Source: a virus
Length of the DNA stretch: 64,000 nt
Reading direction: 5' to 3' (one strand)
Virus record (IMG/VR): IMGVR_UViG_3300020582_000008
Span: 1 to 64,000 of that record
Shown: in pieces, positions 231 through 63,348 of the stretch
How the letters are laid out: every line of letters begins with the position of its first letter
Numbering within the stretch: position 1 is the first letter of the stretch
Made by a program: the position numbers and the translations under genes
Notes under the pieces: model-generated
Seen by the model: the letters and a program-made list of their open reading frames with translations, nothing else
Database searches by the model: none
Told to the model about the DNA's origin: nothing

Positions 231-506
231 ATGATGCCGTATCCAATTGAAATACCTAGCAATTGGAACGCCAAAGCGCGTCCCCGTGGCCCCGATTTGG
301 CCGTTGGCGACCTTGTGATGCACAAAAACGAGGCATCCGCCGACCGAATCGCGGAAGTGACGGGCTTTGGCCCGGCCCCCGATAAATGGGTCTGCGTGCG
401 GACTTGGAAGGGCAAATACCGCACCTGGGCGCGGCAAAACCTGATTCGTTTGGACAGTGAATCGGTGACCGAGTCCGGTCTATCCGCTGGGAACAAATCC
501 TCGTGA
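231..506 (+). CDS. hypothetical protein, small beta-rich
   Basis: About 91 residues from ATG 231; an upstream in-frame ATG at 159 would overlap the previous gene and lacks a ribosome site. The middle (GDLVMHKN..., KWVCVRTWKGKYRTW) looks like a short SH3/Tudor-like barrel of the kind that follows 'VGDLV' in many small phage proteins, but I cannot name a family. Its last codons (DSESVTESGLS) lie inside a dispersed motif (468-479), so the C-terminus is probably junction-derived. It overlaps the next gene by 4 bases (GTGA). Confidence 0.55.
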   Translation: MMPYPIEIPSNWNAKARPRGPDLAVGDLVMHKNEASADRIAEVTGFGPAPDKWVCVRTWKGKYRTWARQNLIRLDSESVTESGLSAGNKSS

Positions 507-748
507 CCCAGCATCTTCAAACCTTCTCGCCTGTCTCCTTGCTGGTCCGTAAGCGCGCCAATGCCTTGCGCAGAGTGGAGACCGTAGAAAAAGCCTTGGA
601 GAGATTGGTGGCAACGAGGGAATATCCGAACGTGTTTCGAAGGCATAAGATGCTGTTACAGTCTGTTGCAAATCTGACGCTGGCGATTGAGGCGGTTAGG
701 GCGGTGGAAGGCAAGGAAGTGAAGGTGCTGGGTAGACTGGCTACCTAG
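503..748 (+). CDS. hypothetical helical protein
   Basis: 81 residues from a GTG start that overlaps the upstream stop, so translation is probably coupled. The sequence is mostly charged and predicted helical (RKRANALRRVETVEKALERL). The last residues GRLAT and the stop codon are supplied by the type-1 repeat that begins at 731. Function unknown. Confidence 0.5.
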   Translation: MTQHLQTFSPVSLLVRKRANALRRVETVEKALERLVATREYPNVFRRHKMLLQSVANLTLAIEAVRAVEGKEVKVLGRLAT

Positions 749-797
749 TCGCTCGATTGTTCTGTGAGATTCATACGGCCATAGAGGGTCGAGAAAA
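731..797. repeat. type-1 dispersed repeat, copy A (left end of cassette 1)
   Basis: Begins GGTAGACTGGCTACC, continues with TTGTTCTG and GGCCATAGAGG and ends in a GAGAAAA ribosome-binding stretch just before ATG 798. The copy at 1147-1207 is its inverted partner. Other copies lie at 4744, 5857, 29064, 59461 and 59797. Confidence 0.85.
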
Positions 798-1181
798 ATG
801 GGCTGGGCTGTTGGGGAAGGTAAGGACGGCCGCGACATTGGCTATGGAGTGCCGGCGCTGTGCGATCATCCCGATTGCAACGAGCGCATTGATCGCGGCC
901 TGTCGTTTGTCTGCGGAATGATAAACACAGATGGAGAGGATCGCGGTTGCGGGTTGCACTTCTGCGAGAACCATCTTCGCTGTTCCGACCGATTCGGCCA
1001 ACTGTGCTTTCGATGCTGGCCGCGAAAAAAGACACCCTTTGTTCGGAAACCAGATTTGCCAGAATGGAATATGCACAAACTCACAGATGAGACATGGCAA
1101 CAATGGCGGGACGAGCACCCGTTCGGCGTGGCGCGCCTGCAGCAAGACTCTATGGCGGTAAAGCCCGCTCAGAACGGTTGA
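798..1181 (+). CDS. Cys/His-rich putative zinc-binding phage protein (cassette 1)
   Basis: 127 residues. Conserved-looking Cys/His pairs occur in order: CDHPDC at about 22-27, a lone C at 39, CGLHFCENH at about 51-59 and CFRCW near 70. This suggests a treble-clef or double zinc-ribbon protein. Proteins beginning 'GYGVPAxCDHPxC' are common in phages, with unknown function. The start is fixed by the ribosome site carried in the flanking repeat. The C-terminus DSMAVKPAQNG and the stop are encoded by the inverted repeat copy, and very similar tails occur on the proteins ending at 5904 and 59497. Confidence 0.75.
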   Translation: MGWAVGEGKDGRDIGYGVPALCDHPDCNERIDRGLSFVCGMINTDGEDRGCGLHFCENHLRCSDRFGQLCFRCWPRKKTPFVRKPDLPEWNMHKLTDETWQQWRDEHPFGVARLQQDSMAVKPAQNG

Positions 1182-1207
1182 GAGACAAGGTAGCCAAGCT
1201 AACCAAA
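1147..1207. repeat. type-1 dispersed repeat, copy A' (inverted, right end of cassette 1)
   Basis: Reverse complement of the type-1 repeat: CTCTATGGCGGTAAAGC...GGTAGCCAAGCTAACC. It supplies the SMAVKPAQNG tail and stop of the upstream gene. It is more diverged from copy A than the 4744/5857 pair are from each other. Confidence 0.8.
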
Positions 1208-1221: not shown

Positions 1222-1419
1222 ATGAATCAGGAAGAAAGAATCGAGATTGCGGCAGAGGCCATGTGGCGGCATCGCGCATCAAATACCAACGAAACTGATT
1301 GGGGACGAATGACGTGGGATTCGTTCAACACCATCAAGCCGGATATCGCGGCAATTTATCGGGAGAATGCCATGGTCGCCGTCCGCGCTCTCGATGAGGC
1401 AACGTTGGCGGTCGTGTGA
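1222..1419 (+). CDS. hypothetical protein, 65 aa
   Basis: Short acidic protein (MNQEERIEIAAEAMW...) with GAGAGGGC just upstream as a ribosome site. It has a predicted helix-rich N-terminus and no recognisable domain. Its last codon and stop overlap the start of the type-2 repeat at 1414. Confidence 0.5.
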   Translation: MNQEERIEIAAEAMWRHRASNTNETDWGRMTWDSFNTIKPDIAAIYRENAMVAVRALDEATLAVV

Positions 1420-1457
1420 ATTTCCGTGCCGTCGCCACAACCCGTGATCAGGAATGA
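1414..1457. repeat. type-2 dispersed repeat, copy 1
   Basis: 44-nt segment beginning GTGTGAATTTCCGTG and ending CCCGTGATC..GAATGA. Matching copies lie at 45439-45483 and 63026-63070. Here it joins the stop of one gene to the start codon of the next. Confidence 0.75.
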
Positions 1458-1684
1458 GTCAGCTACCTAACAAAGAGATTCAGCAAATAGAAGAGGAACA
1501 AATAACCTCGATCGTCACCAAGGCAATACGAGACTTCAATTCACTATCGCCTTATCAAAGGCGACACGCGAGACAGATAACAAGGCGATGGCTTGTTTGC
1601 GGTGGGGCGAATGCGGTAAAACCTGCGGGTGATGAAGAAGGTTTTGAAGCATCATACGATAATCTCGACTTTCAAGGGGGATGA
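1454..1684 (+). CDS. hypothetical protein, 76 aa
   Basis: Starts at the ATG inside the type-2 repeat. The N-terminal two thirds are helical and charged (NKEIQQIEEEQ, YQRRHARQITRRW); the tail is acidic. No family recognised. It overlaps the open frame upstream of the next gene, whose real start is probably later (1689). Confidence 0.45.
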   Translation: MSQLPNKEIQQIEEEQITSIVTKAIRDFNSLSPYQRRHARQITRRWLVCGGANAVKPAGDEEGFEASYDNLDFQGG

Positions 1685-4743: not shown

Positions 4744-4817
4744 TGTTTGTTTGGTTAGACTGGCTACCTTGGCGTGCGATTGTTCTGAGAGATTCATACG
4801 ACCATAGTGGGTGGAGA
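4744..4817. repeat. type-1 dispersed repeat, copy B (left end of cassette 2)
   Basis: TGTTTGTTTGGTTAGACTGG then GCTACCTTGG...TTGTTCTGAGAG...CCATAGTGG, ending in GGTGGAGAAAGC directly before GTG 4822. The inverted partner is 5857-5919. The first bases are shared with copy D at 59461. Confidence 0.88.
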
Positions 4818-4821
4818 AAGC

Positions 4822-5904
4822 GTGGCGGCAAATAGCAAGATCGAATGGACTGAGGCGACATGGAATCCGATTGTCGGTTGCTCCATAGTCTCGCCCGGCT
4901 GCACGAATTGTTACGCTATGAAGATGGCGGCGCGACTTGAGGCGATGTTCGCCGGCACCAGCGGTGCGACGCATTATCGCGGCACCACCAAAAAAGTGAA
5001 CGGCAATGCCGTGTGGACAGGCCAGCTCGCGCTGGCGCCGGAAACCATCCTCACCGAGCCGCTGCGGCGCAAGAAGCCGACGACGTATTTCGTCAATTCC
5101 ATGGGCGATCTGTTTCATGAAGCCGTTGCCAAGGGCGATATCGATCGCGTATTCGCCGTCATGGCGCTGTGCCCGCAGCATACGTTCCAGGTGCTGACCA
5201 AGCGCGCGGCGCGGATGCGGGATTATATGACCAGCGTCACGTTCGGTCGGATCGACGCGGCGTGTCTTTCCCTTAAAACCGATAAACCGGCCGTTGCTGC
5301 GCATACGCTTTTCAAGAACGTCTGGCTCGGCGTCTCCTGCGAGCGCCAACAGGAAGCCGACGAGCGCATTCCGCTGTTGTTGCAGACGCCGGCGGCGATC
5401 CGGTTCATTTCGGCAGAGCCTTTGTTGGGACCGATCAACCTCACGCGGATAAACACTCCCGGTAACGGTCTCGGCTGGTTTGACGCGTTTGCGAGTCCAG
5501 ATCATTGCCTCGATTGGGTGATCGTTGGTGGCGAATCCGGTCGAAGCGCACGGCCGATGCACCCGCAATGGGCGCGAGATATTTGCGACCAATGCGAAGC
5601 GGCCGGCGTTCCGTTCTTTTTCAAACAATGGGGCGAGTGGGCGCCAGGTCTTTGGTCAGGCGCGGGTGATCCTGCACATTTCAATCCATTCGATACATCC
5701 ATCGATATTCCCGATCTCAGTCGTCATGATGCATGGGCAAATCGCGTGCATTGGTTTGATCCCGATAGCGCACCCGATGGCCTCGGCGCTTTGAAGCTTG
5801 GAAAAAAGATTGCCGGGCGGCGGCTTGGGGGTGTTGAGCACAACGGATTTCCACAAGCCTCTATGGCCGTAAAGCCCAAGCAGGACAATCGACAGCCAAG
5901 GTAG
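4822..5904 (+). CDS. phage Gp37/Gp68 family protein (DUF5131), radical-SAM-like (cassette 2)
   Basis: About 360 residues. It opens SKIEWTEATWNPIVGC and has the Cys cluster C-x6-C-x2-C (CSIVSPGCTNC), then YFVNSMGDLFHE, FQVLTKRA, NVWLGVSCERQ, RFISAEPLLGP, WVIVGGESG and FFFKQWGEW. These are all hallmarks of DUF5131, a family related to radical-SAM enzymes whose substrate is not established. GTG 4822 is preferred because GGTGGAG in the repeat is well spaced. The last ~15 residues (ASMAVKPKQ...) come from the flanking repeat and are not part of the family core. Confidence 0.88.
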   Translation: MAANSKIEWTEATWNPIVGCSIVSPGCTNCYAMKMAARLEAMFAGTSGATHYRGTTKKVNGNAVWTGQLALAPETILTEPLRRKKPTTYFVNSMGDLFHEAVAKGDIDRVFAVMALCPQHTFQVLTKRAARMRDYMTSVTFGRIDAACLSLKTDKPAVAAHTLFKNVWLGVSCERQQEADERIPLLLQTPAAIRFISAEPLLGPINLTRINTPGNGLGWFDAFASPDHCLDWVIVGGESGRSARPMHPQWARDICDQCEAAGVPFFFKQWGEWAPGLWSGAGDPAHFNPFDTSIDIPDLSRHDAWANRVHWFDPDSAPDGLGALKLGKKIAGRRLGGVEHNGFPQASMAVKPKQDNRQPR

Positions 5905-5919
5905 CCAGTCTAACCAAAA
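5857..5919. repeat. type-1 dispersed repeat, copy B' (inverted, right end of cassette 2)
   Basis: GCCTCTATGGCCGTAAAGC...CCAAGGTAGCCAGTCTAACC. It is the reverse complement of the type-1 unit, encodes the final ASMAVKPKQ... tail and stop of the DUF5131 gene, and ends just before the next gene. Confidence 0.88.
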
Positions 5920-9780: not shown

Positions 9781-10586
9781 CCGACGCCCCAAGCCTCTCT
9801 GCCGGCCCAGCCGAAGAAGTCATAGCGAAGCGATCACGCTTTGTCGTGATGGCCGGCTGGAATGACGTTCCGCATCTTACCCCCGAAATGATTGCGGAAG
9901 AAAAATCCCGCATCCCACCCCACGAATTCGAAGCACGCTCACTCGGCAAACCATCCCTCGGCCAAGGCGCGGTCTACCCTGTTCCTGAATCCGAAATCCT
10001 TTGCGATCCGTTCATCGTCCCCGATTGGATGCCGCAGTGCTATGCGCTCGACGTGGGCTGGAAACGAACCGCCGCGCTGTGGGGAGCCTGGGACCGCGAC
10101 AACGACGTGGTGTATCTGTACGGCGAACACTATCGCGGGCAGGCCGAACCTCCAATTCATGCCGCTGCGATCCGCGCTCGGGGCTTATGGATTCCCGGAG
10201 TCATCGATCCCGCCGCGCAAGGCCGAGGCCAGAAAGACGGTGCACAACTGCTCACCATCTACCAGAATGATCTTGGCCTTAATCTCACCCAAGCCGATAA
10301 TGCGCTCGAAGCTGGGATCGTCGCGGTGTGGCAGAGACTCACAACGGGGCGGCTCAAAGTGTTTCGGACGCTGGTTAATTGGATCAAGGAATATAGGTTT
10401 TATCAGCGCGACGAACACGGGCGAATCAAAGACGGACAAGCCGATCACTTGATGGACGACACGCGCTATCTTATCATGTCCGGGTTAAGCGTTGCGTGCG
10501 TGCGGCCGGCCGATCAGTGGACTACGGGTAAATCACAAGTCGCATGGCAAGCGGAATATGACCCCCTCGCCTACCAAACCCGATGA
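9777..10586 (+). CDS. terminase large subunit, nuclease half
   Basis: 269 residues. The first ~20 residues are a novel leader; then SRFVVMAGWNDVPHLTPE...RIPPHEFEARSLGKPSLGQGAVYPV joins the normal terminase sequence. The RNase H-like nuclease residues are visible: YALDVGWKRTAALWG (first catalytic Asp), GVIDPAAQGRG and GQADHLMDDTRYL (third acidic cluster). It cuts concatemeric DNA at packaging. It would have to associate with the separately made ATPase. Confidence 0.85.
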   Translation: MTDAPSLSAGPAEEVIAKRSRFVVMAGWNDVPHLTPEMIAEEKSRIPPHEFEARSLGKPSLGQGAVYPVPESEILCDPFIVPDWMPQCYALDVGWKRTAALWGAWDRDNDVVYLYGEHYRGQAEPPIHAAAIRARGLWIPGVIDPAAQGRGQKDGAQLLTIYQNDLGLNLTQADNALEAGIVAVWQRLTTGRLKVFRTLVNWIKEYRFYQRDEHGRIKDGQADHLMDDTRYLIMSGLSVACVRPADQWTTGKSQVAWQAEYDPLAYQTR

Positions 10587-10767
10587 AGAACAGGAACGGC
10601 GCGAGCGCGTGATTGCGTATATCATGCGGCGCGATCACGTGAGTCGCGAGACAGCAATCGAGGCGTTCAAGCGACTGCGCGGGCATGAATTGTGGATGCT
10701 CGAACAGGCATTGAAACCGAAACAGCCGATGTTCACGGCTGAGTATGATCCGCTTGGGAGAAATTGA
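10558..10767 (+). CDS. hypothetical protein, 69 aa
   Basis: Starts inside the end of the nuclease gene. The core ERRERVIAYIMRRDHVSRETAIEAFKRLRG is helical, and the tail repeats the TAEYDPL-type ending also seen at the end of the nuclease gene (QAEYDPLAY against TAEYDPLGR). It overlaps the next start. Function unknown. Confidence 0.55.
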   Translation: MTPSPTKPDEEQERRERVIAYIMRRDHVSRETAIEAFKRLRGHELWMLEQALKPKQPMFTAEYDPLGRN

Positions 10768-10982
10768 TGGGCTCGCTGCTTTCCCCTCCACAGATGACTC
10801 CACCCCCACCGCCGCCAATCCCGCCTGCGGCTATCCCGCCGACCATGGCCAACCCCGCCGTGCAACAGGCCGGCAAGAATCAGATTGGTAAGGCCGCGGC
10901 ACTTGCGGATTCGACGGTCAAGACCAGCGCGGAGGGCGATCTTGTGAAGCCCATGACGACATCCTCGCAATTGCTGGGCTGA
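10767..10982 (+). CDS. small proline-rich protein between terminase and portal
   Basis: 71 residues from ATG 10767, with GGGAG upstream. The N-terminus is a proline run (PPQMTPPPPPPIPPAA), followed by a helical tail. Similar short Pro-rich proteins sit between terminase and portal in many podoviruses; they may be minor head components. Confidence 0.6.
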   Translation: MGSLLSPPQMTPPPPPPIPPAAIPPTMANPAVQQAGKNQIGKAAALADSTVKTSAEGDLVKPMTTSSQLLG

Positions 10983-10983
10983 C

Positions 10984-12828
10984 ATGGCCCTGACCGCAGA
11001 ACGCGCCGAAGTCTATTACGAGAATGCAAGCGCGTCGTTACTTGCTCTCACTCCCGCGATCATCGACGGCAAGACTTGGCAATCGAATCAGGATTGGGAG
11101 GACTTTCGGAATTATCTGGAACAAGTCCTCTTGGGAATGCGCAATTGGCGCACGCCGTGGTGGATGCATTGGGGCGAGATAGCCGCTCAGATGCTTCCGC
11201 GAAGATATTATTGGGTCATCACTCCCAACAACATGACCCGCGGTCTGCCGATCAATCAGAACGTGGTGGACTCGACAACCACGCAAGCAATCGGTGTTTG
11301 CGCCGCCGGCATGATGGACGGGTTATCTTCTCCTACGAAAATCTGGTTCAAGTTTGAAGCACCCGAAGGCATGGAGTTGGACACGGCGGGCAAACGCTGG
11401 CTTAATGACTTTCAAAAGGACACATACGACGTAATTTCTGGATCGAACTATTATGATCGAAAGCACCAATATTACGAGGATCAGATAACATTTGGTACCG
11501 CGCCGATGTTGATTTACGAGAACAGAGAGCGGATCATCAATTGCGAAGTGCCGTGCGCGGGGGAGTATTTCGGGGCGTGCGGGTCGGATAATTCCATCGA
11601 GACATTCGACCGCGAATTTGTTCTAACCTGCGGGCAAATCGTGCAGCGGTTCGGACCTAAAGCCGTAGCTGGAACCAACGTCGCGGAGCTTTGGAATACC
11701 AAAGGAGCAAACCTCGAAACCGAATTCATCGTCGCACATTCCATCGAGCCGAACTTTCCGGCGAATCAGTACGGTCAGAAGCCGAGGCTTGGGGTTGTTC
11801 CGGGTGGTTATGCATATCGCGAAACCTACTGGTTGCGCGGTCTCAACACGCCGCAGCCTCTCTCGGTGCGAGGCTATCGCGAAAAGCCGTTCATGTATGC
11901 GCCTTGGACTCAGCGCTCGAACGATGCCTATGGGCGCGGGCTTGGTATGGATGCGCTGCCGGATTGCAGTCAGTTGAATCAGATGACGCGGCGAGAAGCC
12001 GAGGCCATCGACAAGGGCGTGCGGCCTCCGATGCTTGCCGACGCGACGTTGAAGAACGAGCCGGCTTCGACGCTTCCCGGTAAAGTCACATACGTTCCGA
12101 ACCTCGCACAGAACGCCGGCATGAAAGCCGCATACACGGTCGATCCGCGTTTTGTGGAATTCATCGAGCAGAAGATCGTGACGTTGCAGAAGCGAATCGA
12201 GCGATGGTTCGCCAACGATGTGTTCGAAATGATCTCGCAGATGGAGGGAGTTCAACCCCGCAACGAACTGGAATTGCAGGAGCGCCGCGGTGAGAAACTG
12301 TTGCGCCTTGGTCCGGTGATCGAGCGCAATCTTCGCGAGGATGCCGTTGGCTTGAGGCGCATCGTGTCGATCATGAATCGTCGTGGATTGATTCCGCCCA
12401 AGCCCCAATCGCTCGCGGGCGTGCCGGTCCAACTGAAATTCGTGTCCAAGCTGGCGCTCATTCAACAGGCCGCTAAGACCGCCGGCATGGAGCGCACTAT
12501 CGTCATGGGCGGTCGCATGGAAGCCGTCCGCCCTGGCACGCTCGACGAAATCAACTTCCCGAAATACCTGCGGGATTATGGCGAAGCGGTCGAGTTTCCT
12601 CCCGAGGATTGGAACACCGACGCGGAAAAGAAGGCTTTGCAAACCGCGAGGGCACAGCAGCAACAGCAGGTCGCCCAGATGCACACGGCTGAAAAAGTCA
12701 CGCCGGCTCTTGCATCAGCGGCACAAAACCTGTCACAAACCGATACTGGCGGCGGTATGAATGCGCTGCAAATGCTGTTGGGTGGCGGCGGTACGGGTGC
12801 CCCACCCGCAGTGGAAGGCGGACAATGA
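10984..12828 (+). CDS. portal protein (T7-type head-tail connector)
   Basis: 614 residues, the usual size for a T7-like portal. Characteristic pieces: TRGLPINQNVVDSTTTQAIGVCAAGMMDGLSSPTKIWFKF near 75-115, YYEDQITFGTAPMLIYE and the C-terminal Gln-rich tail ARAQQQQQVAQ. The dodecameric ring sits at one capsid vertex and anchors the motor and tail. It is followed by an overlapping gene (ATGA). Confidence 0.92.
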   Translation: MALTAERAEVYYENASASLLALTPAIIDGKTWQSNQDWEDFRNYLEQVLLGMRNWRTPWWMHWGEIAAQMLPRRYYWVITPNNMTRGLPINQNVVDSTTTQAIGVCAAGMMDGLSSPTKIWFKFEAPEGMELDTAGKRWLNDFQKDTYDVISGSNYYDRKHQYYEDQITFGTAPMLIYENRERIINCEVPCAGEYFGACGSDNSIETFDREFVLTCGQIVQRFGPKAVAGTNVAELWNTKGANLETEFIVAHSIEPNFPANQYGQKPRLGVVPGGYAYRETYWLRGLNTPQPLSVRGYREKPFMYAPWTQRSNDAYGRGLGMDALPDCSQLNQMTRREAEAIDKGVRPPMLADATLKNEPASTLPGKVTYVPNLAQNAGMKAAYTVDPRFVEFIEQKIVTLQKRIERWFANDVFEMISQMEGVQPRNELELQERRGEKLLRLGPVIERNLREDAVGLRRIVSIMNRRGLIPPKPQSLAGVPVQLKFVSKLALIQQAAKTAGMERTIVMGGRMEAVRPGTLDEINFPKYLRDYGEAVEFPPEDWNTDAEKKALQTARAQQQQQVAQMHTAEKVTPALASAAQNLSQTDTGGGMNALQMLLGGGGTGAPPAVEGGQ

Positions 12829-13073
12829 AACAGCAAAATCTCGAAGAGGCTGCGCGGCTTGCTATCTCGATGAAGAAAAGAAATATTCTGTTGGAGCAAT
12901 GCCAAGACACAGGCTCCAATTTGACTATCTCAGGAAGAACCGCCGTCACAATCACCGCGGACGACAAAATGATGCAGCCTCTAAAGGAACTTTTAGCTCA
13001 CAGGCTTCGACAGGATATTCAAGAAATCAACGAGAAACTACGCTTACTCGGCGTGACGGAGCAAGCCGCGTGA
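12825..13073 (+). CDS. hypothetical coiled-coil protein, 82 aa
   Basis: Overlaps the portal stop. The core (TISGRTAVTITADDKMMQPLKELLAHRLRQDIQEINEKLRLLGV) is one beta hairpin plus a long amphipathic helix. This type of small protein often follows portals in BPP-1-like phages. Function unknown. Confidence 0.6.
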   Translation: MKQQNLEEAARLAISMKKRNILLEQCQDTGSNLTISGRTAVTITADDKMMQPLKELLAHRLRQDIQEINEKLRLLGVTEQAA

Positions 13074-13279
13074 ACACGACAAGTCCAATCACGGCGCTGT
13101 TGCTTGATCGCACGGTTGCGATGCTGATGACCTGTCCGAAAGAGGATAGGCGTCCACACAAGCATTTCGTCGTTATCAGCGGGAAGATGATCGGGACCGG
13201 CAACCCGAATCTTGAGAAGGTGATGCTCACTCAGGTTGAGTTTTTGGAAATGTTTGGGCCGCAGAGTGCAGTGCAATGA
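13070..13279 (+). CDS. hypothetical protein, 69 aa
   Basis: GTG 13070 overlaps the previous stop and the frame ends on the next start. The sequence ITALLLDRTVAMLMTCPKEDRRPHKHFVVISGKMIG... is alpha/beta-like. It is one of a chain of four coupled small genes behind the portal. No family recognised. Confidence 0.5.
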   Translation: MNTTSPITALLLDRTVAMLMTCPKEDRRPHKHFVVISGKMIGTGNPNLEKVMLTQVEFLEMFGPQSAVQ

Positions 13280-13518
13280 GCGACGATTTGAAGCAACAAC
13301 CCGCAACGCCGGCAGCCGGCTCTGTCACGTACCTGGGCCGCAGCGAACGCGAGCGCGCGGCAGAAATCCGCGATGGTATCAAACAACTCATGTTCGAAGT
13401 CGGGCGCTGGATGGATCAAGCGAACGCGCAAGGTATGCGCGTCGAGTTTCAGATGGTTATCGATGGGTTTGGCAAGAACGTCATCGGCCGATTGGATGTC
13501 ACGAAGTCGCTTCTATGA
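13276..13518 (+). CDS. hypothetical protein, 80 aa
   Basis: ATGA overlap at both ends. YLGRSERERAAEIRDGIKQLMFEVGRWMDQANAQGMRVEFQMV is a long helix followed by short strands. Unknown function, probably head-associated by position. Confidence 0.5.
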   Translation: MSDDLKQQPATPAAGSVTYLGRSERERAAEIRDGIKQLMFEVGRWMDQANAQGMRVEFQMVIDGFGKNVIGRLDVTKSLL

Positions 13519-14060
13519 CCGAAGAAGTCAAAACCTACGAACCCGACGATCCGCAGAACCCGAACAATCTGGTTGTTCGTGGGCGCGACGGCGATCCGGT
13601 TCCTCATCCGAATGGCACAGCCATGATCGAGAAGGAATCGTATGAACGCGTAGTGGAAGGCTTGAAGATGGCGAGCGACGCTTGCGTGCATCTTGCCAAG
13701 CGCGAGCCGCTAACCGCCTCCGTGTGGAACGAGATAGCACAGATGCTCGACAAGATACGCCGCGACGCTGTGGCTTTAGGTGGCGTCGATCTGGTCATGA
13801 AGCAACAGGAAACCGAAGCCGTGAGGGGTGAACCTCTGTCCTGGCGCGCGGCGCGGCAAAAGTTTCTCGACGGCATCAAACAAACAACCGGCGGAATGCG
13901 CCAACTCGCGACGTGCTTTCGCGGCGACTATATGTGGTCGATGATGGCGCAACGGCTTGAGCGGCAGGAAAAGACGTTCCGGGGATTGTTGCTCGGGCGC
14001 GTGGTGGAAAGTAGGAAGGGGACGCCGCTGATTCTGCCGCCTGGATTTGCGAGGTCGTGA
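13515..14060 (+). CDS. hypothetical helical protein, 181 aa
   Basis: ATG 13515 overlaps the previous stop. The N-terminus is acidic and extended (EEVKTYEPDDPQNPNNL); the rest is helical with many charged residues (LTASVWNEIAQMLDKIRRDAVALGG, WSMMAQRLERQEKTFRGLL). No domain named. The position suggests a minor structural or assembly role. Confidence 0.5.
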   Translation: MTEEVKTYEPDDPQNPNNLVVRGRDGDPVPHPNGTAMIEKESYERVVEGLKMASDACVHLAKREPLTASVWNEIAQMLDKIRRDAVALGGVDLVMKQQETEAVRGEPLSWRAARQKFLDGIKQTTGGMRQLATCFRGDYMWSMMAQRLERQEKTFRGLLLGRVVESRKGTPLILPPGFARS

Positions 14061-14167
14061 TGCGAATGATCGAAGAGGACGGCAAAGGACGTTTCTGGAT
14101 AATCAAAGTAGCCGGCAAGAATTACGTTGCCTGGATAGCGCCGACGCCTCTGTGGTTTTGGATATAA
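14060..14167 (+). CDS. very small protein, 35 aa
   Basis: ATG 14060 overlaps the previous stop (TGATG). The peptide is aromatic at both ends of its core (GRFWIIKVAGKNYVAWIAPTP...WFWI) and could form a beta hairpin. The overlap argues that it is translated. Confidence 0.4.
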   Translation: MRMIEEDGKGRFWIIKVAGKNYVAWIAPTPLWFWI

Positions 14168-14185
14168 AAACAACAGGAGACTCCT

Positions 14186-14377
14186 ATGCCTATCGGTCTT
14201 TTGTTCTGGATGCTGATGATCCTGTGGCTGATCTTCGGCGGTGTTTGGTGGCGCAACGGCGCCGGCTGGGCATACGGCTGGGGCGGCAACATGCTGTTGC
14301 TGTTCGTGCTCCTGTTCCTGCTCGGCTGGCACGACTTTGGGTTTATCCTGCAAGGTGGAGGCGGTCCCTTTCGATGA
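14186..14377 (+). CDS. small integral membrane protein, 63 aa
   Basis: CAGGAG lies 8 bases before ATG. There are two hydrophobic segments: LLFWMLMILWLIFGGVWW and MLLLFVLLFLLGW, joined by a Trp/Gly-rich turn. Proteins starting MPIGLxFWxLMxLWLIFG recur in rhizobial phages near head genes. Its role is unknown; it could be an inner-membrane assembly or lysis-timing protein. Confidence 0.65.
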   Translation: MPIGLLFWMLMILWLIFGGVWWRNGAGWAYGWGGNMLLLFVLLFLLGWHDFGFILQGGGGPFR

Positions 14378-14443
14378 GCTGGCAGTGAGCCGGGTTCCGT
14401 CGATTCCGCCCGATCTGAGAGAAACGCCGTCAATCTGCCGGGG

Positions 14444-14872
14444 ATGCTGATGCAGCCGAAGAAAGCCATGACTGATCTGCCGTACGGGGTGAATATCTCC
14501 GCGTTCGTACAGGACGGCAAAAGCCACATCCGCAAGGATGTGGATGACAAATTCCGCAGGATGTTGACCGAGGCCGCGGCGCGGCAGGCAAATTTCGCCG
14601 CTCGGTTCCACATCAGCAATGCGCTGCACAACGGCCCGTCGCGCGGTGGTGCTGCCGAATCGATCAAATTCTTCGGCTCCGAACTCGACGTAAAACTCCA
14701 CCTGACCGCAGAAATCGTCGATGCCCTTGAAGTCTCCGCGCCTGGATTCAAAAAGTGGATGGAACTGACGGGTTTTGGCAACGACAAGACGATGATCCGG
14801 GGTTTTGTCGAGTGGGCTGAATTTCGGAACGGGCGCGGGAAGGTTATGACAAACTTAGCGGACATCAACTGA
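14444..14872 (+). CDS. hypothetical protein, about 140 aa
   Basis: Start could be ATG 14444, 14450 or 14468 (MTDLPYGV). The middle AESIKFFGSELDVKLHLTAEIVDALEVSAPGFKKWMELTGFGND suggests a folded alpha/beta domain. It sits between the small membrane protein and the Bbp19-like gene. No family recognised. Confidence 0.5.
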   Translation: MLMQPKKAMTDLPYGVNISAFVQDGKSHIRKDVDDKFRRMLTEAAARQANFAARFHISNALHNGPSRGGAAESIKFFGSELDVKLHLTAEIVDALEVSAPGFKKWMELTGFGNDKTMIRGFVEWAEFRNGRGKVMTNLADIN

Positions 14873-15263: not shown

Positions 15264-16176
15264 TAAAGACGCAAAACCCGAGCCTGTTGCCGCCGTTCCT
15301 GCGGAGACGAAAGTTACCGATTCGGTCGCGCTCCCCGCGTCGCCTTTGGCAACTGCCGATTCGGCCAATCACGAAGGCGCAGCACCCGCTGCGGAAGTCA
15401 AACCTGAGACAAAGCCGAACGGCCACGATGTAACTGCCGAAGCGAAGCCGGCCGCTGAGACGAAGCCCGAGACCAAACCAGATTCAGCGTCGGAGACCAA
15501 GCCCGATGCAACAAAGCCCGCCACGGAAAGTGGCGAGACCAAGCCGCCCGCAGAAGTGAAGGCTGAGACCAAGCCCGAAGGTGAGGTCAAGCCTGAGACG
15601 AAGCCGGCGGATACCAAGGAAGCCCCGGAAGCAACGCCGCAGGCCCCTCCTGTTTACGAAGCGTTGAAACTCCCCGACACGGTGAAGTTGGACAAGGATC
15701 GCGTCGCGAAATTCGACGAGATTATCGGCAAAACCGAACTGTCCACCAAAGGCGATCACGCCGCAATGACTGCTATGCGGCAGGATTTAGCCAATCTCTA
15801 TGTCGAGGAAGTCAATCGCATCGGACAACAGGTCGCAAAGCACCAGCATGACGTGTGGAATAGACTTGTCGAGCAGCGGGTCAACGAACTCAAATCGGAC
15901 CCACAGCTAGGCGGCAACCGCATCGAAACAACGCTGGGTAACGCTAAGTACGCTCTGGAAACCATGGTGGGATTGTCGAAAGACGAAGCCACCACTTTGA
16001 TCGCCGTCATGGACGCAGGTGGGGTTTCTCACCATCGTTTGATGATCAAGGCGCTCAATGGAATCTACGAGCTTTTGCGCGAGCCTGAACCCGTTCCCGG
16101 AACCCTGCCTCTCAACGCAACGACCTCGAAGGAACCCGGCCAGCGTGGCTGGTACGATTCGGTCGCCAAGACGTAG
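15256..16176 (+). CDS. capsid scaffolding protein
   Basis: 306 residues. Residues ~45-130 are a low-complexity stretch built from repeats of ETKP/AETKPE, acidic and probably disordered. From ~135 the sequence becomes helical (LPDTVKLDKDRVAKFDEIIGKTELSTKGDHAAMTAMRQDL...), typical of phage scaffolds. The position directly before the capsid gene supports this. Scaffolds are transiently inside the prohead and leave before DNA packaging. Confidence 0.75.
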   Translation: MADKDAKPEPVAAVPAETKVTDSVALPASPLATADSANHEGAAPAAEVKPETKPNGHDVTAEAKPAAETKPETKPDSASETKPDATKPATESGETKPPAEVKAETKPEGEVKPETKPADTKEAPEATPQAPPVYEALKLPDTVKLDKDRVAKFDEIIGKTELSTKGDHAAMTAMRQDLANLYVEEVNRIGQQVAKHQHDVWNRLVEQRVNELKSDPQLGGNRIETTLGNAKYALETMVGLSKDEATTLIAVMDAGGVSHHRLMIKALNGIYELLREPEPVPGTLPLNATTSKEPGQRGWYDSVAKT

Positions 16177-16206
16177 AGAAGGCCAAGTTTGAAAGGCTTC
16201 TAGCCC

Positions 16207-17241
16207 ATGGCTTCCTTGACCCTGGCCGATGTCGGCCGTCGCATGGACCCTGGCGGCAAAATCGCCGACATGGCCGAACTGATGTCTCAATGCAACGAGA
16301 TCGACGAGGATGCCCCGCTCGTAAAAGGCAATCTCACAACCGGCCACGTTGCCACGCTCCGAACCGCTCTGCCGAAGGGCACTCTTCGACGCTTCAATCA
16401 AGGCGTCGGCTACACCAAATCCTCGGCTGCGCAGATCACGTTCGGCATGGCGATGCTGGACGCCTATTCGCAGATCGACAAAAGACTCGCCGATCTTGGT
16501 GGAAACACCAACGCCAACCGCGAGAAAGAGGACGTGGCCCACATGGAGGGCATGTCCCAGCAGTGGACTGGCTTCCTCGTTTATGGAAATGCTTGGACCA
16601 CTCCCGAACAGTTCTCCGGTTTTTCAACCTACTTCTCCGCAATCGCCAATACACCGAACGGCGTCAATGTGTTCGACGCTGGGGGAACTGGTTCCTCAAA
16701 TACCTCGATCTGGCTCATCGGCTGGGGCGACCAGACGGTTTACGAGATTTACCCGGATGGTACGAAAGCCGGGCTGATCTTCGAGAACAAAGGTGATGTT
16801 GTCCCGGCGTTCACATCGAACGGCACGGCCCGGTACGAAGCCTATACGTCCTACTTCTCGCGTAACGGCGGTCTCGCTATCGAGGACTGGCGCTATGTGA
16901 TTCGCATGGCGAACTTCGATACCACGACCGCAGGGCTTGCTGGTCCTACTCCCCCGGACATCTTTGCGATCATGTCGAAGTCGGTTGTTCGTCTGCCGAC
17001 GGCAGGGCGGATGGTTTCCGGCATCGTCAAGACCGACGCACCGGATCGCGTCGCTCCTTCGATCCGCCTGAAATTCTACTGCGACCGTACCGCGCGGGAG
17101 TACATGGACATCCAGGCGATCCGGGATAAGAACGTGCTGCTTCGGCCCGAGGATTACGCCGGCCGTCCGATTGTGAATTTCCGCAATATCGCAATCGGTG
17201 TGGTCGATCAGATTCTCGATACCGAAAGCCGCGTGGTCTAA
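16207..17241 (+). CDS. major capsid protein (Bbp17-like, BPP-1 type)
   Basis: 344 residues. The N-terminal arm MASLTLADVGRRMDPGGKIA is the usual start of this capsid family, followed by DAPLVKGN...HVATLRTALPKGTLRRFNQGV and the C-terminal P-domain-like part with PPDIFAIMSKSVVRLP and MDIQAIRDKNVLLR. This is the HK97-fold shell subunit. Its downstream neighbour is the cement protein, as in BPP-1. Parts of this gene appear again in altered form at 22460 (N-terminal arm) and 29667 (C-terminal domain). Confidence 0.88.
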   Translation: MASLTLADVGRRMDPGGKIADMAELMSQCNEIDEDAPLVKGNLTTGHVATLRTALPKGTLRRFNQGVGYTKSSAAQITFGMAMLDAYSQIDKRLADLGGNTNANREKEDVAHMEGMSQQWTGFLVYGNAWTTPEQFSGFSTYFSAIANTPNGVNVFDAGGTGSSNTSIWLIGWGDQTVYEIYPDGTKAGLIFENKGDVVPAFTSNGTARYEAYTSYFSRNGGLAIEDWRYVIRMANFDTTTAGLAGPTPPDIFAIMSKSVVRLPTAGRMVSGIVKTDAPDRVAPSIRLKFYCDRTAREYMDIQAIRDKNVLLRPEDYAGRPIVNFRNIAIGVVDQILDTESRVV

Positions 17242-20824: not shown

Positions 20825-21340
20825 ATGGGCCGCTTCAAAAGAACGCTCGCCGCACTTCTGCTGTCATCGTCGCTTGTTTCGCCGAGTCAAGCGCAGTTCG
20901 GCAGCGGTGGTACGATCTCGCCATGCAACGGCGATCTCAATACGTCGTGTCAGGTCACGAATCTTCATACCGGCGTCAATCGAATTCTCTGCTCGATCCG
21001 CGCCGCGAATTTCAACATCACGACAGATCAATCATGTGCGATCCCGGCCTCAGTTACGGCCTGGGTGCCGACCTCGATCATTGTGACGAATTGTTCCGGC
21101 ACGTTCACTCTAGCGGCTGGCGGCGTCTATCCCGCGACGAGCAAAGCCGGAACGGCGCTGGTCGCTGCGGCGCAGGCTTATACGGCGCTAACCGGCGCGA
21201 CTGTCGTTTTAGGACTGACGCTCGCGGCCAACATCGCGACGACGCGACAAACCGTTAACTCGGTTTACCTCTCGCTTACGACCGGAACGGGCAGTGCGGC
21301 GACGTGCGATTTCTATGTCGTCGGGAACGATCTCACATGA
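20825..21340 (+). CDS. small secreted-type virion-region protein
   Basis: 171 residues with Sec leader RTLAALLLSSSLVSPSQAQF. Six Cys residues in the mature part (for example SPCNGDLNTSCQV, RILCSI, QSCAIP) suggest disulfides formed outside the cytoplasm. It ends overlapping the next start (ATGA). Function unknown. Confidence 0.55.
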   Translation: MGRFKRTLAALLLSSSLVSPSQAQFGSGGTISPCNGDLNTSCQVTNLHTGVNRILCSIRAANFNITTDQSCAIPASVTAWVPTSIIVTNCSGTFTLAAGGVYPATSKAGTALVAAAQAYTALTGATVVLGLTLAANIATTRQTVNSVYLSLTTGTGSAATCDFYVVGNDLT

Positions 21341-22269
21341 TGTGGCGTGTCGCTCTTGCGGTTTGGCTGACGGCGGCACTCTCGCTGTTCGCGTTCAACG
21401 CGCCGCGGGCGCAGTTCAACGGCTGTCAGGCTGGATTTTGTAGTCCGCCATCCTCTGCGGCAGCCGCATATGTTGGCCCCGGCGACATCACGTCAGGCGC
21501 CATCGCATTCTATTCCTGTAGTCGAGCTTACAACGCAGCCTATGCAAGCGGCCTTAATGCCGCTTGCGACGTAGTCGATACCGCTACAGGTCTTGTCACG
21601 GGAACGATGCACTTTCTCTCTACCGGCTTTGTAAACGTCAACGAACTGACCGGCGTTGGGCAAGCCTGCCACGCCGCGTGCAGCGTCACGAAGATGTACG
21701 ACCAGACCGGCACCGGCAATCATGTGGTACAGGCGACGCTCGCCAATATGCCGGCGCTGACGTTCAATGCACAGAATGGATTGCCGTGCGCGGCGGGTGG
21801 AGCGAATAGTCCGCGCTTAGTCACAGCCGGAAATATAACGCAAGCCGCACCATTTACGATGACAGCAGTAACCGAGCGCGGTAGCGGATTTACGACTCTT
21901 CAAAATATACAAAACAATGGAAATCTTAACATCCTTCGGTTTCCGGCGGTGGCAAATCAGGTAAGCGCTGTGTCTGGGACAGCCAGTACATTAACTGCAA
22001 CTGATAGTGCTTTTCATGCGTTGCTGGCGGTGGTTAGCGCGACAGCCCCTTTATTTGCTGCCGATAGCAGCGCAAACACAAGCACAGCAACGTTTGGAAC
22101 CTCTGCAATGGCCTCTACCGAAGCTATTGTCGGAAGGTCTGGCGGTCAGGGGCCAATACTTGCTGGTGGTTTCGTCTGCGAAGCCGGTATCTGGCCCGCC
22201 GATCTCAACTCATCCTATCAAGCCATGCTCGCCAATATGCGCAGCGCGACCAATGGGTGGAATTTCTAG
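21337..22269 (+). CDS. arabinofuranosidase-B-like/LamG-like virion protein with signal peptide
   Basis: 310 residues. After the leader (RVALAVWLTAALSLFAFNAPRAQ) the sequence AFYSCSRAYNAAYASGLNAACDVVD...VTKMYDQTGTGNHVVQATLANMPALTFN follows the pattern of the catalytic-domain-like jelly roll of alpha-L-arabinofuranosidase B, seen in phage sugar-binding proteins. The C-terminal half is LamG/concanavalin-like. It probably binds or trims host surface glycans. I cannot tell whether it is catalytic. Confidence 0.6.
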   Translation: MMWRVALAVWLTAALSLFAFNAPRAQFNGCQAGFCSPPSSAAAAYVGPGDITSGAIAFYSCSRAYNAAYASGLNAACDVVDTATGLVTGTMHFLSTGFVNVNELTGVGQACHAACSVTKMYDQTGTGNHVVQATLANMPALTFNAQNGLPCAAGGANSPRLVTAGNITQAAPFTMTAVTERGSGFTTLQNIQNNGNLNILRFPAVANQVSAVSGTASTLTATDSAFHALLAVVSATAPLFAADSSANTSTATFGTSAMASTEAIVGRSGGQGPILAGGFVCEAGIWPADLNSSYQAMLANMRSATNGWNF

Positions 22270-24291: not shown

Positions 24292-25083
24292 ATGGACGAC
24301 GTAACGATTGCGAATATCGCCTTGGACAACATAGGCGCTCGCATGTCCATTACGTCGTTGCAGCCACCACTTCCGCCGCCGAACGCAATAGTTGTTGCGC
24401 GCCAATATCAGATTCGGATTGACGCGCTTCATCGTAGCGCGCATTGGAATTTTGCCCGTTTCCAAAAAAAAGGAATTATCCTAAAAGCTGCGCAAGGCAC
24501 ACCTGAAAATCCCAACGGCACAACGCTGCCGATTCCTCCGTATCCCTGGCAGTATGCCTACGCTTACCCCCCAGATTGTTTGCTTGCGCGTTATCTTCTC
24601 TGCAATCAACCCCTGACCGGAAGCGGCAACCCTTTTCCTGCGGGAGTCCAAACAACGCCGCTGTGGCCGTTCGGAAATCCCGGTTATAAGTTTGTGGTAG
24701 CAAACGACACGGATGCGGCCGGCAACCAAATAAAAGTCATCCTGACCGATTTGGAATTTGCGGATATTGTTTATACCGGCCGCGTGACAAATCCTGATCT
24801 TTGGGATGCTCATTTTCAGAATGGCGCTATTGCAACTCTTGGCGCATGGCTGGTCAATCCGCTCGCTCGCAATGCGATAGTCCTCAAAGAGCAAATCGAG
24901 ATTGCAACGTCGGTCGTGCAGTCAGCGCGAATCTCGGATGGCAACGAGGGAATTACTTCCATTGATCACACGCCAGATTGGATGGCGGTCAGAGGAATAA
25001 CCGGCTACGGTCTTGCTTGGGATTCGGCGATGACTTACTATGGCTGGTCGAGTTTGGGATTTCCTGGCGGCGGGTTTGTTTGA
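24292..25083 (+). CDS. tail tubular protein A-like (tail adaptor)
   Basis: 263 residues; GGGAGG upstream of the ATG. It opens VTIANIALDNIGAR and contains RQYQIRIDALHRSAHWNFARFQKK, PPYPWQYAYAYPPDCLLARYL and a C-terminal helix-rich part, the standard pattern of podovirus tail tubular protein A/gp11-type adaptors that join portal to nozzle. It precedes the nozzle gene without a gap. Confidence 0.85.
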   Translation: MDDVTIANIALDNIGARMSITSLQPPLPPPNAIVVARQYQIRIDALHRSAHWNFARFQKKGIILKAAQGTPENPNGTTLPIPPYPWQYAYAYPPDCLLARYLLCNQPLTGSGNPFPAGVQTTPLWPFGNPGYKFVVANDTDAAGNQIKVILTDLEFADIVYTGRVTNPDLWDAHFQNGAIATLGAWLVNPLARNAIVLKEQIEIATSVVQSARISDGNEGITSIDHTPDWMAVRGITGYGLAWDSAMTYYGWSSLGFPGGGFV

Positions 25084-29063: not shown

Positions 29064-29129
29064 TTGGTTAGACTGGCTACCTTGGCGTGCGATTATTCTG
29101 TGAGAGTCTTACGGCCATAGAGGATTGAG
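29064..29129. repeat. type-1 dispersed repeat, copy C (solo)
   Basis: TTGGTTAGACTGGCTACC...TTATTCTGTGAGAG...ACGGCCATAGAGG, nearly identical to copy B but without an inverted partner downstream. It separates the gp13-like gene from the next virion gene. Read on the minus strand it would encode the same SMAV... tail. Confidence 0.88.
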
Positions 29130-29139
29130 AAAAAAGATC

Positions 29140-43880: not shown

Positions 43881-44059
43881 GTAGGAATTTTGGTCACGCG
43901 AGTGCTGCGCGAACTGAAAGACCGGAATCGGTCATCGATTCGACTGAGGAAAAGTTGACGCCGTTTCAGCGGTTTATTCTTGCGGTTGGGATTGCTGCGG
44001 GATTGTTTCTCGGTCTGACGACTGCGCACGGCTATTACATTTGGTTTTTGAAGCCATGA
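43877..44059 (+). CDS. small membrane protein, 60 aa
   Basis: GTG start on the previous stop. A hydrophilic N-terminus is followed by one transmembrane helix (FILAVGIAAGLFLGLTTAHGYYIWF). ACCGGAATCGGTCA in its 5' part is a copy of the type-3 motif. It overlaps the endolysin start, so it could act in lysis. Confidence 0.5.
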   Translation: MSRNFGHASAARTERPESVIDSTEEKLTPFQRFILAVGIAAGLFLGLTTAHGYYIWFLKP

Positions 44060-45431: not shown

Positions 45432-45438
45432 TGCGCGC

Positions 45439-45483
45439 GTGTGAATTTCCGTGCTGCCCTGAGCAACCCGTGATCTGGAATGA
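45439..45483. repeat. type-2 dispersed repeat, copy 2
   Basis: GTGTGAATTTCCGTG...CAACCCGTGATCTGGAATGA, the 45-nt relative of 1414-1457 and 63026-63070. It lies in the gap before the outer-membrane protein gene. The remainder of the gap up to 45579 shows only weak promoter-like boxes (TTGTCA). Confidence 0.75.
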
Positions 45484-45579
45484 CACAATCCAGACTCAAT
45501 CTAAAACTGTGATGTGCTAATTTTGTCACGGCCTTATCTGCTAAGCGTATGGCGTAACTTCATCAAAGTGGAGACGATC

Positions 45580-47959: not shown

Positions 47960-48015
47960 TTGTCAACAGGTTGTTTCACGATAGGTCCTTCGGGCTGAGG
48001 GACCGGATTCGGTCA
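47960..48015 (+). promoter_or_regulatory. promoter-like boxes and type-3 motif upstream of 48036
   Basis: TTGTCA (47960-47965) and TAGGTC (47982-47987) with a 16-base spacer resemble the promoter at 63606-63634 (TTGACG/TAGGTT). They are followed by the palindromic GACCGGATTCGGTCAAC (48001-48017), which could be an operator. The rest of the 249-base gap from 47787 shows one imperfect hairpin (GCGCCGTT...AACGACGC) after the previous gene. Confidence 0.4.
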
Positions 48016-48035
48016 ACTTTCCATGGGAGGATTAC

Positions 48036-48194: not shown

Positions 48195-49054
48195 AACCGC
48201 TTTGCATTTATCATGGTGCATGTGACGACGGATTCGCAGCGGCTTGGTGTGTCCGCAAACGCTTTCGTGATGAGGTCGAATTCTATCCCGGCGTTTATCA
48301 GAAAGAGCCGCCGCCGCATGAGGGACGCGACGTTGTGTTTGTCGATTTCAGCTATAAGCGGCCGGTCCTTGACGCGATGGCGAAGATTGCAAATTCAGTT
48401 TTGATCCTCGATCATCACAAGACGGCGGCCGAAGATTTGGCGGATATTGCGCCAGCGCCGGATTTCATCGACTGGCGTGGCGCGGCGGCAATTGACGGCT
48501 CTGGCAACAATATGTTCGCGCTGTTCGATATGAATCGAAGCGGCGCAGCAATGGCTTGGGATTATTTTATCGGCGGTCCGCGCCCCGACTTTATTGAGTA
48601 TGTGCAAGACCGCGATCTCTGGCGCAAGGCGCTCCCATGCGGCGACGAATTCACGATTGCGCTGCGCTCCTATCCGCAAGATTTTTTGATTTGGGATAAG
48701 TTCGTTGACGCTGGCGCTCAGTCTTTGATCGCCGAAGGCGGTGCAATACAGCGCTACTATCGTTTACGCGTTGAGGAACTGAAAAAGAGTGCATACGCTG
48801 CAACGCTCGACGGACAAAATATCTGGATCGCGAACGCTCCGTATTTCGCCGCGAGCGAAGTTGCCGGCGAACTAACAGAACGCGATGGTGCCTATGGCGC
48901 GTGCTACTTCGAGGCCGAAGGCGGCCGATACCAATATTCGCTACGCTCGCGCGGCGACTTCGATGTAAGCGCCGTGGCGCGGAAATTTGGTGGCGGCGGC
49001 CACAAGGCCGCTGCCGGCTTTTCTGTCGATCAGCCCGCGCATACGAAACGGTGA
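48191..49054 (+). CDS. DHH family phosphoesterase
   Basis: 287 residues. The N-terminal DHH domain shows CIYHGACDDGFAAAWCV, FVDFSYKR and the name motif ILDHHKTA; the C-terminal DHHA1 end is GGGGHKAAAGF. DHH proteins hydrolyse nano-RNA, ssDNA or cyclic dinucleotides. In a phage it might degrade c-di-AMP/c-di-GMP-type or cyclic oligonucleotide signals, or recycle nucleotides; the substrate cannot be read from the sequence. Confidence 0.85.
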   Translation: MKPLCIYHGACDDGFAAAWCVRKRFRDEVEFYPGVYQKEPPPHEGRDVVFVDFSYKRPVLDAMAKIANSVLILDHHKTAAEDLADIAPAPDFIDWRGAAAIDGSGNNMFALFDMNRSGAAMAWDYFIGGPRPDFIEYVQDRDLWRKALPCGDEFTIALRSYPQDFLIWDKFVDAGAQSLIAEGGAIQRYYRLRVEELKKSAYAATLDGQNIWIANAPYFAASEVAGELTERDGAYGACYFEAEGGRYQYSLRSRGDFDVSAVARKFGGGGHKAAAGFSVDQPAHTKR

Positions 49055-49098
49055 CCGATATCCGGTCCCTCAACCGGCACCTAGGAACCGTGACCCAG
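49054..49098. repeat. type-3 motif at gene end, extended copy
   Basis: ACCGATATCCGGT lies over the stop of the DHH gene, followed by TCAACCGG...GGAACCGTGACCCAG. A similar run (GACCGAGTCCGGTC...GGGAAC...CGTGACCCAG) occurs at 467-510, so the similarity extends about 45 bases. Confidence 0.6.
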
Positions 49099-50615: not shown

Positions 50616-50818
50616 AACGCGAACGCCGTACCTGGACGATGCCCGATTGGATGGAGCGTTTCCGTACCAAGATCATCAACACAGGCGGCAATGCCGTGGA
50701 AGAAATGATGGTCGATGACTCCGATCCGCAAATTAACTTGCCCCGCGCCGTTCTTGCGGCTTGCGTTAAATCGCAAGTTGGTTTGCTGGAAATTCTTCAT
50801 AAGGATGGTGTGCTGTGA
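50612..50818 (+). CDS. hypothetical protein, 68 aa
   Basis: ATGA overlaps on both sides, between the HTH gene and the integrase. WMERFRTKIINTGGNAVEEMMVDDSDPQINLPRAVLAACVKSQVGLLEILHKDGVL is alpha/beta. Function unknown; it could be an excisionase-like partner, but no HTH is visible. Confidence 0.5.
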   Translation: MKRERRTWTMPDWMERFRTKIINTGGNAVEEMMVDDSDPQINLPRAVLAACVKSQVGLLEILHKDGVL

Positions 50819-56410: not shown

Positions 56411-56575
56411 GGCGGGCCAAATCCGACATTTGGGGATAGTGGGCCGCCGTGTGGAAAATCGACCTGTTTTGCGCTATACTGCGCGAAGCGGTCATTTTCT
56501 TCGGGGCCAAATCCCGGGGTTGATGATCCGGGGCCGTCGCTGCTTCAACAGTGACGGTCCCACTTACTACGATGG

Positions 56576-59460: not shown

Positions 59461-59526
59461 GTTTGTTTGGTTAGACTGGCTACCTTGGCTGTCGCACTAC
59501 TGAGAGGGTTTTACGGCCATAGAGGT
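59461..59526. repeat. type-1 dispersed repeat, copy D (right side of cassette 3, minus gene)
   Basis: TTTGTTTGGTTAGACTGG then GCTACCTTGG...TTTTACGGCCATAGAGG. It encodes the SMAVKPSQ end and stop of the minus gene at 59497. Partner at 59797. Confidence 0.88.
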
Positions 59527-59787
59527 TTGTTCTGGGGCCACCTTCGCAATCGCCGCCTCTAACCGATTGTGGGAGTCCAAATACCGAGCATACGAAACGG
59601 TCCCGGCGCTTGCGATCATGAACTGCGCAGCCGCAAGCATTTCGGTAAGGTCGCGGGTATTGCGCAGCCCGATTGAAAGGATAGACCGCGCCGCCGCTTC
59701 GCCAAGCGGTCCTTCGTCAGCGTGAGCATCGGCCTGTTCCAGATAATTCAGGTCCGCCTCTAGTCTCGTGATAAGCTCCGCGCTCAT
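59497..59787 (-). CDS. hypothetical helical protein (cassette 3)
   Basis: 96 residues. The body is helical (ELITRLEADLNYLEQADAHADEGPLGEAAARSILSIGLRNTRDLTEMLAAAQFMIASAG) and ends PEQTSMAVKPSQ, the repeat-encoded tail. The 5' side is bounded by the other repeat copy, whose GGATAGAGAAA gives the ribosome site. Its function is unrelated to the other two cassette genes as far as visible. Confidence 0.65.
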   Translation of the reverse strand: MSAELITRLEADLNYLEQADAHADEGPLGEAAARSILSIGLRNTRDLTEMLAAAQFMIASAGTVSYARYLDSHNRLEAAIAKVAPEQTSMAVKPSQ

Positions 59788-63007: not shown

Positions 63008-63025
63008 TTCACTCTCCCAAACCCC

Positions 63026-63070
63026 GTGTGACTTTCCGTGTCGTCTAGGCCAGTCCGTGATCAAGAATGA
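63026..63070. repeat. type-2 dispersed repeat, copy 3
   Basis: GTGTGACTTTCCGTG...CCAGTCCGTGATCAAGAATGA. It encodes the last residues (LILDHGLA-stop) of the minus gene at 63045 and ends just before the next gene's start. Confidence 0.75.
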
Positions 63071-63299
63071 GGCACACGCCTTCCTGACTGAGCAAATACC
63101 AAACTAAAACCCCGACATTGATCGCCAACAGAACGGCTAGCGCCAATGCTGTGTGTTCGTATTTCCTCTCCAACTCTTCCCGCTTAAGCTCCGCTCCCAA
63201 CAGCCGGGCATGGTTTTGCATCGGGTCGGAGTGCTGCGCTATGGCGAGTGCGTTGATTGCGGGGCGGTTGTCGCGTGGTCGAAGAGAAGAAAGGAACAT
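63045..63299 (-). CDS. small membrane protein, 84 aa
   Basis: A soluble head (LSSLRPRDNRPAINALAIAQHSDPMQNHARLLGAELKREELERKYEH) precedes one helix (TALALAVLLAINVGVLVWYLL). ATG 63299 is chosen. Its tail is from the type-2 repeat. Confidence 0.5.
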   Translation of the reverse strand: MFLSSLRPRDNRPAINALAIAQHSDPMQNHARLLGAELKREELERKYEHTALALAVLLAINVGVLVWYLLSQEGVCLILDHGLA

Positions 63300-63331
63300 G
63301 GCTGTCTCACGGAACTTTGTTAGTTTGCGAT

Positions 63332-63343
63332 ACCGGACTCGGT
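63332..63343. promoter_or_regulatory. type-3 palindromic motif ACCG-N4-CGGT
   Basis: ACCGGACTCGGT within TACCGGACTCGGTCAAC, in the 49-base gap between two minus-strand genes. Other copies: 468-479, 43921-43932, 48002-48013 and 49054-49066 (one base longer). It could be an operator shared by several operons. Confidence 0.5.
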
Positions 63344-63348
63344 CAACG

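Follow-up and report, generated by a model that had tools for sequence, protein, structure and literature searches.

Small accessory genes in a family of uncultured, short-tailed phages (podoviruses) probably sit in exchangeable cassettes between the other phage genes, with the cargo swapped allelically at repeated borders. As far as sequence comparison can tell, these borders behave like ports for swapping genes, because what lies between the same borders at a given position varies among relatives, from one gene to another or to no gene at all. The window (the whole stretch of DNA that was analysed) covers 64,000 of the 64,286 bp of an IMG/VR phage record. A 163-bp direct repeat lies at the two ends of the record (1-163 and 64124-64286, 99.4% identity), and because the terminal 163 bp are nearly identical the genome is probably complete. 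Its portal and capsid proteins have 30-40% identity to those of Epsilon15- and BPP-1-like podoviruses of many hosts. Apart from those of the cassettes, genes were called with a simple script; Rfam gave no match within the window. An IS1-family transposase gene (PF03400) lies at 55499-56410 on the minus strand, near a tRNA-Val gene (56573-56647).

The cassettes are defined by a repeat of about 65 bp (type I), present in seven copies in the window: three inward-facing pairs, each enclosing one gene, and one solo. Searching with a pattern for the complete unit gave seven matches in the window and none in 100 dinucleotide shuffles. The type I features are:

728..797, plus strand: left border (LE, type I) of cassette 1, its 3' end being the ribosome site
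798..1181, plus strand: cargo of cassette 1, 127 aa, with its ATG at 798
about 1148..1207, minus strand: right border (RE, type I) of cassette 1, inverted, encoding the C-terminal tail and stop of the cargo
4749..4821, plus strand: left border (type I) of cassette 2, beginning 6 bp past the stop of the upstream gene
4822..5904, plus strand: cargo of cassette 2, a DUF5131 (PF07505) protein of 360 aa with a GTG start
about 5848..5918, minus strand: right border (type I) of cassette 2, encoding SMAVKPKQDNRQPR and a stop
29064..29136, plus strand: solo left border (type I), immediately before the gene at 29140
59465..59531, plus strand: right border (type I) of cassette 3
59497..59787, minus strand: cargo of cassette 3, 96 aa
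59783..59857, minus strand: left border (type I) of cassette 3

The outer edge of the left border of cassette 1 also encodes the final codons and stop of the upstream gene (503-748). The N-terminal 61 residues of the cassette 1 cargo match phrog_18518 (unknown function), its C-terminal end (...DSMAVKPAQNG*) is encoded by the inverted right copy, and the two arms are imperfect (72% over 58 nt). The cargo of cassette 3 has no PHROGs or Pfam match and no relative in the IMG/VR search. The solo border at 29064 is missing at the corresponding place in the relative G002. An earlier note on this DNA had claimed that one copy of the repeat gives the ribosome site of the 798 gene, that an inverted copy encodes the tail and stop of the same gene, and that the architecture recurs at two more loci. 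All of this is confirmed, with the left repeat at 728-797, the gene ending in SMAVKPAQNG* with its stop at 1181, and the further loci at 4749-5918 and 59465-59857 (the gene of the latter on the minus strand). The solo seventh copy (29064-29136) and three further border-like families (II, III and IV) had been overlooked.

The two type I ends are not alike. Left ends bear ...TTACGGCCATAGAGGGTGGAGAAA ahead of the start codon; right ends have in common an outer TTGGTTAGMYTGGCTACCTTGGC and an inner TTTACGGCCATAGAG, and their middles differ from those of left ends. Near-invariant blocks, TGGCTAC and TACGGCCATAG, are present in both ends, though one end is non-coding, and the strong conservation of these blocks suggests that the borders may have a further function. 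The left border starts a few bases past the stop of the upstream gene or overlaps that stop. At the other side, 14 cassettes have a cargo whose frame continues into the right border as SMAVK, one has a cargo that enters it in another frame, and in the rest the cargo stops earlier. Use of the SMAVK frame by 14 of the 15 border-reading cargos (1148-1181 in the window, for example) exceeds equal use of the three frames, with the caveat that the cargos are not all independent. The proposal that the borders would express and terminate any gene placed between them is therefore partly borne out: the left border does bring the ribosome site, but the right border supplies the stop in about half of the cassettes only.

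The type I repeat appears confined to one phage group. A scan of 2.9 million virus contigs found 16 further IMG/VR phage contigs with it, several of the resulting 17 being partial; these carriers are mostly 70-82% identical to each other where aligned and include three near-identical pairs. A profile finds 68 type I copies in the 17 contigs, arranged as 30 inward pairs and eight solos; in the window it places the minus-strand copies of cassettes 1 and 2 at 1138 and 5845. Once near-duplicates are removed, all type I neighbours less than 1.3 kb apart face inwards (28/28), with no other arrangement. None of the INPHARED phages carries the repeat. The only bacterial match in the genome collection, L038 in a Bryobacterales genome, looks like chance (9 bits with the profile), and L085 and L087, matches to a shorter pattern, were likewise taken as chance.

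Across the carriers, cassettes occupy recurring conserved intergenic sites, and different phages have different cargo at one site. Sites were defined by comparing flanks (BLAST matches and reading by eye):

Site A, 4749 in the window: filled in 9/9 distinct phages showing the site: type I borders in eight, a type II pair in G012
Site B, 59465 in the window: five different type I cargos; G002 and G014 have just a type II border there
Site C, 728 in the window: a type I cassette in each of four phages; G009 has a hybrid, and G002 and G007 have other borders
Site D: type I in G001, G005 (empty), G006, G009, G011 and G015; type II in G002

Site A alone holds three sorts of DUF5131 gene, an HMUDK_hel gene (PF18723) and genes for two other proteins, besides the type II cassette of G012. 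At Site C in G001 and G014 there is nothing between the neighbouring genes, which abut, and Site D in the window and G014 has a type III border alone. The empty type I cassette of G005 consists of the left border, ATGCAAGCC and the right border, with an 11-codon frame; G017 has an empty type II cassette of the same make-up. The view of the repeats as exchangeable borders, put forward in the earlier note, thus finds support in the same sites carrying other cargo, other border families or nothing across the 17 contigs. Further support comes from the spread of the cargo over 22 families, from the two empty cassettes, and from cargo homology to borderless relatives, which begins at the start codon.

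These 22 protein families come from 27 non-redundant type I cargos: five DUF5131 proteins, all at Site A, two members of one 83-aa family at different places, and 20 singletons, which include the HMUDK_hel protein and a helix-turn-helix protein. Many cargos are without known function. The protein with the 5-hmdU DNA kinase helical domain (PF18723) is cargo in G009 (24300-25154, L071) and G010 (10428-11282, L074), and this suggests that DNA hypermodification genes may be among the swapped cargo. In every type I cassette the cargo has the orientation of the upstream gene. It had been proposed that recombination could also invert genes; since the cargo always runs with the upstream gene, and no flipped allele was seen, inversion is unsupported.

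The three further repeat families (II, III and IV) have the same intergenic layout, and two of them are present in the window:

464..510, minus strand: type II border, at the 3' end of a gene whose end is 506
1413..1461, minus strand: type III right border of gene 1222-1419, including the stop codon of that gene
43890..43935, plus strand: type II border
45438..45488, minus strand: type III border at Site D, where relatives have type I or type II cassettes
47973..48017, plus strand: left border (type II) of a module of two genes that ends at 49097
49050..49097, minus strand: type II right border of the two-gene module
63025..63074, minus strand: type III border
63303..63347, plus strand: type II border

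Type II has 64 copies in the 17 contigs and also occurs in several other podovirus contigs; its neighbours less than 1.6 kb apart face inwards in 18/28 cases. Type III borders pair with type IV borders, and the hybrid cassette of G009 joins a type IV left end to a type I right end. A variant of the type II border, TGGGTCACGAGAGG...TTACGGTGCGGTCAACC, is found in the related podovirus contig G023, also as inverted pairs (12602-14480, 27774-28527 and 31267-31788; L211-L212).

The junctions between cargo and border are sharp, at the start codon and at the right border. At Site D, the similarity between G006 and G015 is close across the upstream gene and the left border up to the start codon; the cargo is unrelated, both edges of the right border are common, and the downstream flank matches again. 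At Site A, G002 and G014 have common borders and different cargo, and a borderless gene elsewhere in G014 has 84% DNA identity to the G002 cargo across 740 bp. That match begins at the start codon and stops close to the right border, where the gene lacking borders ends in its own way. Similarly, the cassette 1 cargo has 73-78% DNA identity to two unrelated borderless phages, starting exactly at base 798, and its relatives carry other C-terminal tails. Comparison of the borders themselves adds to this picture. Likeness among left borders follows the site and not the cargo (86.6% at the same site vs 77.4% at different sites; 0/2000 permutations), and right borders have a weaker site effect (81.5% vs 78.0%, p 0.0015). 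The likeness of left borders by site fits replacement of the cargo in place with the left border retained, as judged by these comparisons, and common descent of the sites partly accounts for it.

In such an exchange, a left border of about 65 bp, lying after or overlapping the upstream stop, would bring the ribosome site of the cargo, and an inverted right border of about 65 bp would close the cargo, often giving the stop codon and the SMAVK... tail. The cargo could be swapped when phages co-infect a cell or in lysogeny, by homologous recombination in the conserved flanks and the repeated borders, so that any captured gene would be translated at once and its neighbours left undisturbed. Most left borders would stay with their site; right borders seem to move along with the cargo more often. 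There are multiple points that count against exchange. First, no cargo exchange was seen between near-identical phages, as pairs of 99.9% identity carry identical cassette sets. Second, homologous recombination alone needs no inverted ends. Third, solo borders (29064 and many of type II) indicate another role, perhaps a regulatory one.

The inverted ends could instead be the substrate of a dedicated recombinase or nuclease, of phage or host, that recognises the inward ends, joins them and excises or inserts the cargo as in a transposon or integron. The strictly inward arrangement (28/28), the near-invariant blocks in both ends, one of them non-coding, and the existence of empty cassettes in two border families are what such an enzyme would leave. 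We nevertheless consider it unlikely, because empty and filled alleles of Sites C and E, compared by eye, reveal no target duplication, the cassettes are confined to a few conserved sites and not scattered, and the border families have the same layout with unlike sequences. No recombinase was found in all of the phages. The IS1-like transposase gene is restricted to the window phage and missing in its 16 relatives. A tyrosine recombinase, considered as cassette mover and rejected, is not intact in most of the 11 phages searched: it is intact in only 5/11, the cassette-bearing G001, G002, G006, G007 and G015 retain fragments only, and G011 (a partial contig) has none. Given fragmentary recombinase genes in cassette carriers and no target duplication, we infer that homologous recombination at borders and flanks is the simplest mover.

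The tyrosine recombinase-like loci lie at 50815-51816 in the window, 39331-40916 in G002, 875-1790 in G006, 16152-16806 in G007 and 20975-21884 in G015. Remnants in four phages keep the first ~30 and last ~25 codons with unrelated sequence between, and G001 has the end only; it looks like the core of the gene was replaced and both ends kept.

It is less probable still that the borders are ordinary regulatory elements (for promotion, processing or translation) at gene ends and that the gene differences between phages reflect common phage mosaicism. Solo left borders such as 29064 and the many type II copies in G014 are oriented along transcription, and repeats at translation starts have a precedent in the start-associated sequences of mycobacteriophages (PMC3203893). 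In the borders of cassettes 1 and 2, however, simple scans found no sigma-70-like promoter (by consensus, so that unusual promoters fall outside its scope) and no intrinsic terminator, and regulation alone would not be expected to give paired inverted ends, empty cassettes, sharp junctions and hybrid pairs. A phage-encoded RNA polymerase with hairpin promoters was also considered and rejected, with no RNA polymerase match among the large genes. Finally, that the two ends pair in the mRNA as a long stem closing a loop round the gene, for protection or regulation of the transcript, is highly improbable: the ends are inverted repeats of each other, but arms are 79.6% alike within a cassette vs 81.8% between cassettes (permutation p 0.98), neither type I end has a strong conserved fold, and the hybrid cassette ends are unable to pair along their length.

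Exchange of cargo at repeated borders has partial parallels in several known systems, and a literature search for inverted-repeat gene cassettes in phages gave no match. Mobile insertion cassettes (MICs) and MITEs have terminal inverted repeats and no transposase inside, with a passenger gene between the repeats. Type I cassettes likewise have terminal inverted repeats (28 inward pairs) with imperfect arms, but they lack target duplication (Sites C and E, by eye), sit at fixed sites and have ends that differ in the middle, one bearing a ribosome site. Integron cassettes are single promoterless genes, exchangeable through a shared border sequence, with attC on the 3' side and an integron integrase. 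The single gene as exchangeable unit and the common border sequence are similar here, whereas there is no attC fold, array or integron integrase, and type I borders stand on both sides. Phage morons are single accessory genes between conserved phage genes, defined by their own promoter and terminator. Type I cargo also consists of accessory, variable genes between conserved phage genes; the simple scan of the borders of cassettes 1 and 2 found no promoter or terminator, and the borders recur across unrelated cargo.

PeSLs (promoter early stem-loops) combine a sigma-70-like early promoter with a stem-loop terminator. T4-type phages have them as mobile regulatory cassettes (Arbiol 2010; Comeau 2014, via PMC4503421). 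In PeSLs, as here, short repeated intergenic units adjoin accessory genes and genes are shuffled between related phages at the repeats; type I repeats lie on both sides of variable genes and coincide with points of exchange from one related phage to another. They differ from PeSLs in having no promoter or terminator detected (simple scan, cassettes 1 and 2) and in forming inverted pairs round one gene, with translation start and stop signals and in several families. The start-associated sequences (SAS) of Cluster K mycobacteriophages are repeats at the translation starts of small accessory genes in one phage group, with a conserved 13-bp GGGATAGGAGCCC at the starts; half have 17-bp inverted repeats (extended SAS, or ESAS) with 4-13 bp between the arms, both of which precede a single start (PMC3203893). 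Type I borders are similarly tied to translation starts and specific to one phage group, but their sequences differ, the two arms lie on opposite sides of the gene, and whether a border is present goes with the site, not the gene family. On the sequence comparisons, the system appears comparable in effect to T4-type PeSL cassettes, as a known kind of repeat-mediated shuffling of phage accessory genes; the paired inward borders, translation signals, empty cassettes and several border families are new.

These cassettes bear on the open question of how small accessory genes are gained and exchanged by phages while operons stay intact. With 17 related contigs to compare, ports, cargo, empty state and junctions are directly visible, and the border pattern provides a homology-free finder of phage accessory genes, in which the cargo is whatever two inward borders enclose. 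The swapped cargo includes one predicted DNA-hypermodification gene (PF18723). It is rather doubtful that the phages have a dedicated gene-exchange system in which a putative protein would recognise inward border pairs of several sequence families and load, swap or empty single-gene cassettes at fixed ports between genes; if true, it would be a phage counterpart of the integron, on a different principle.
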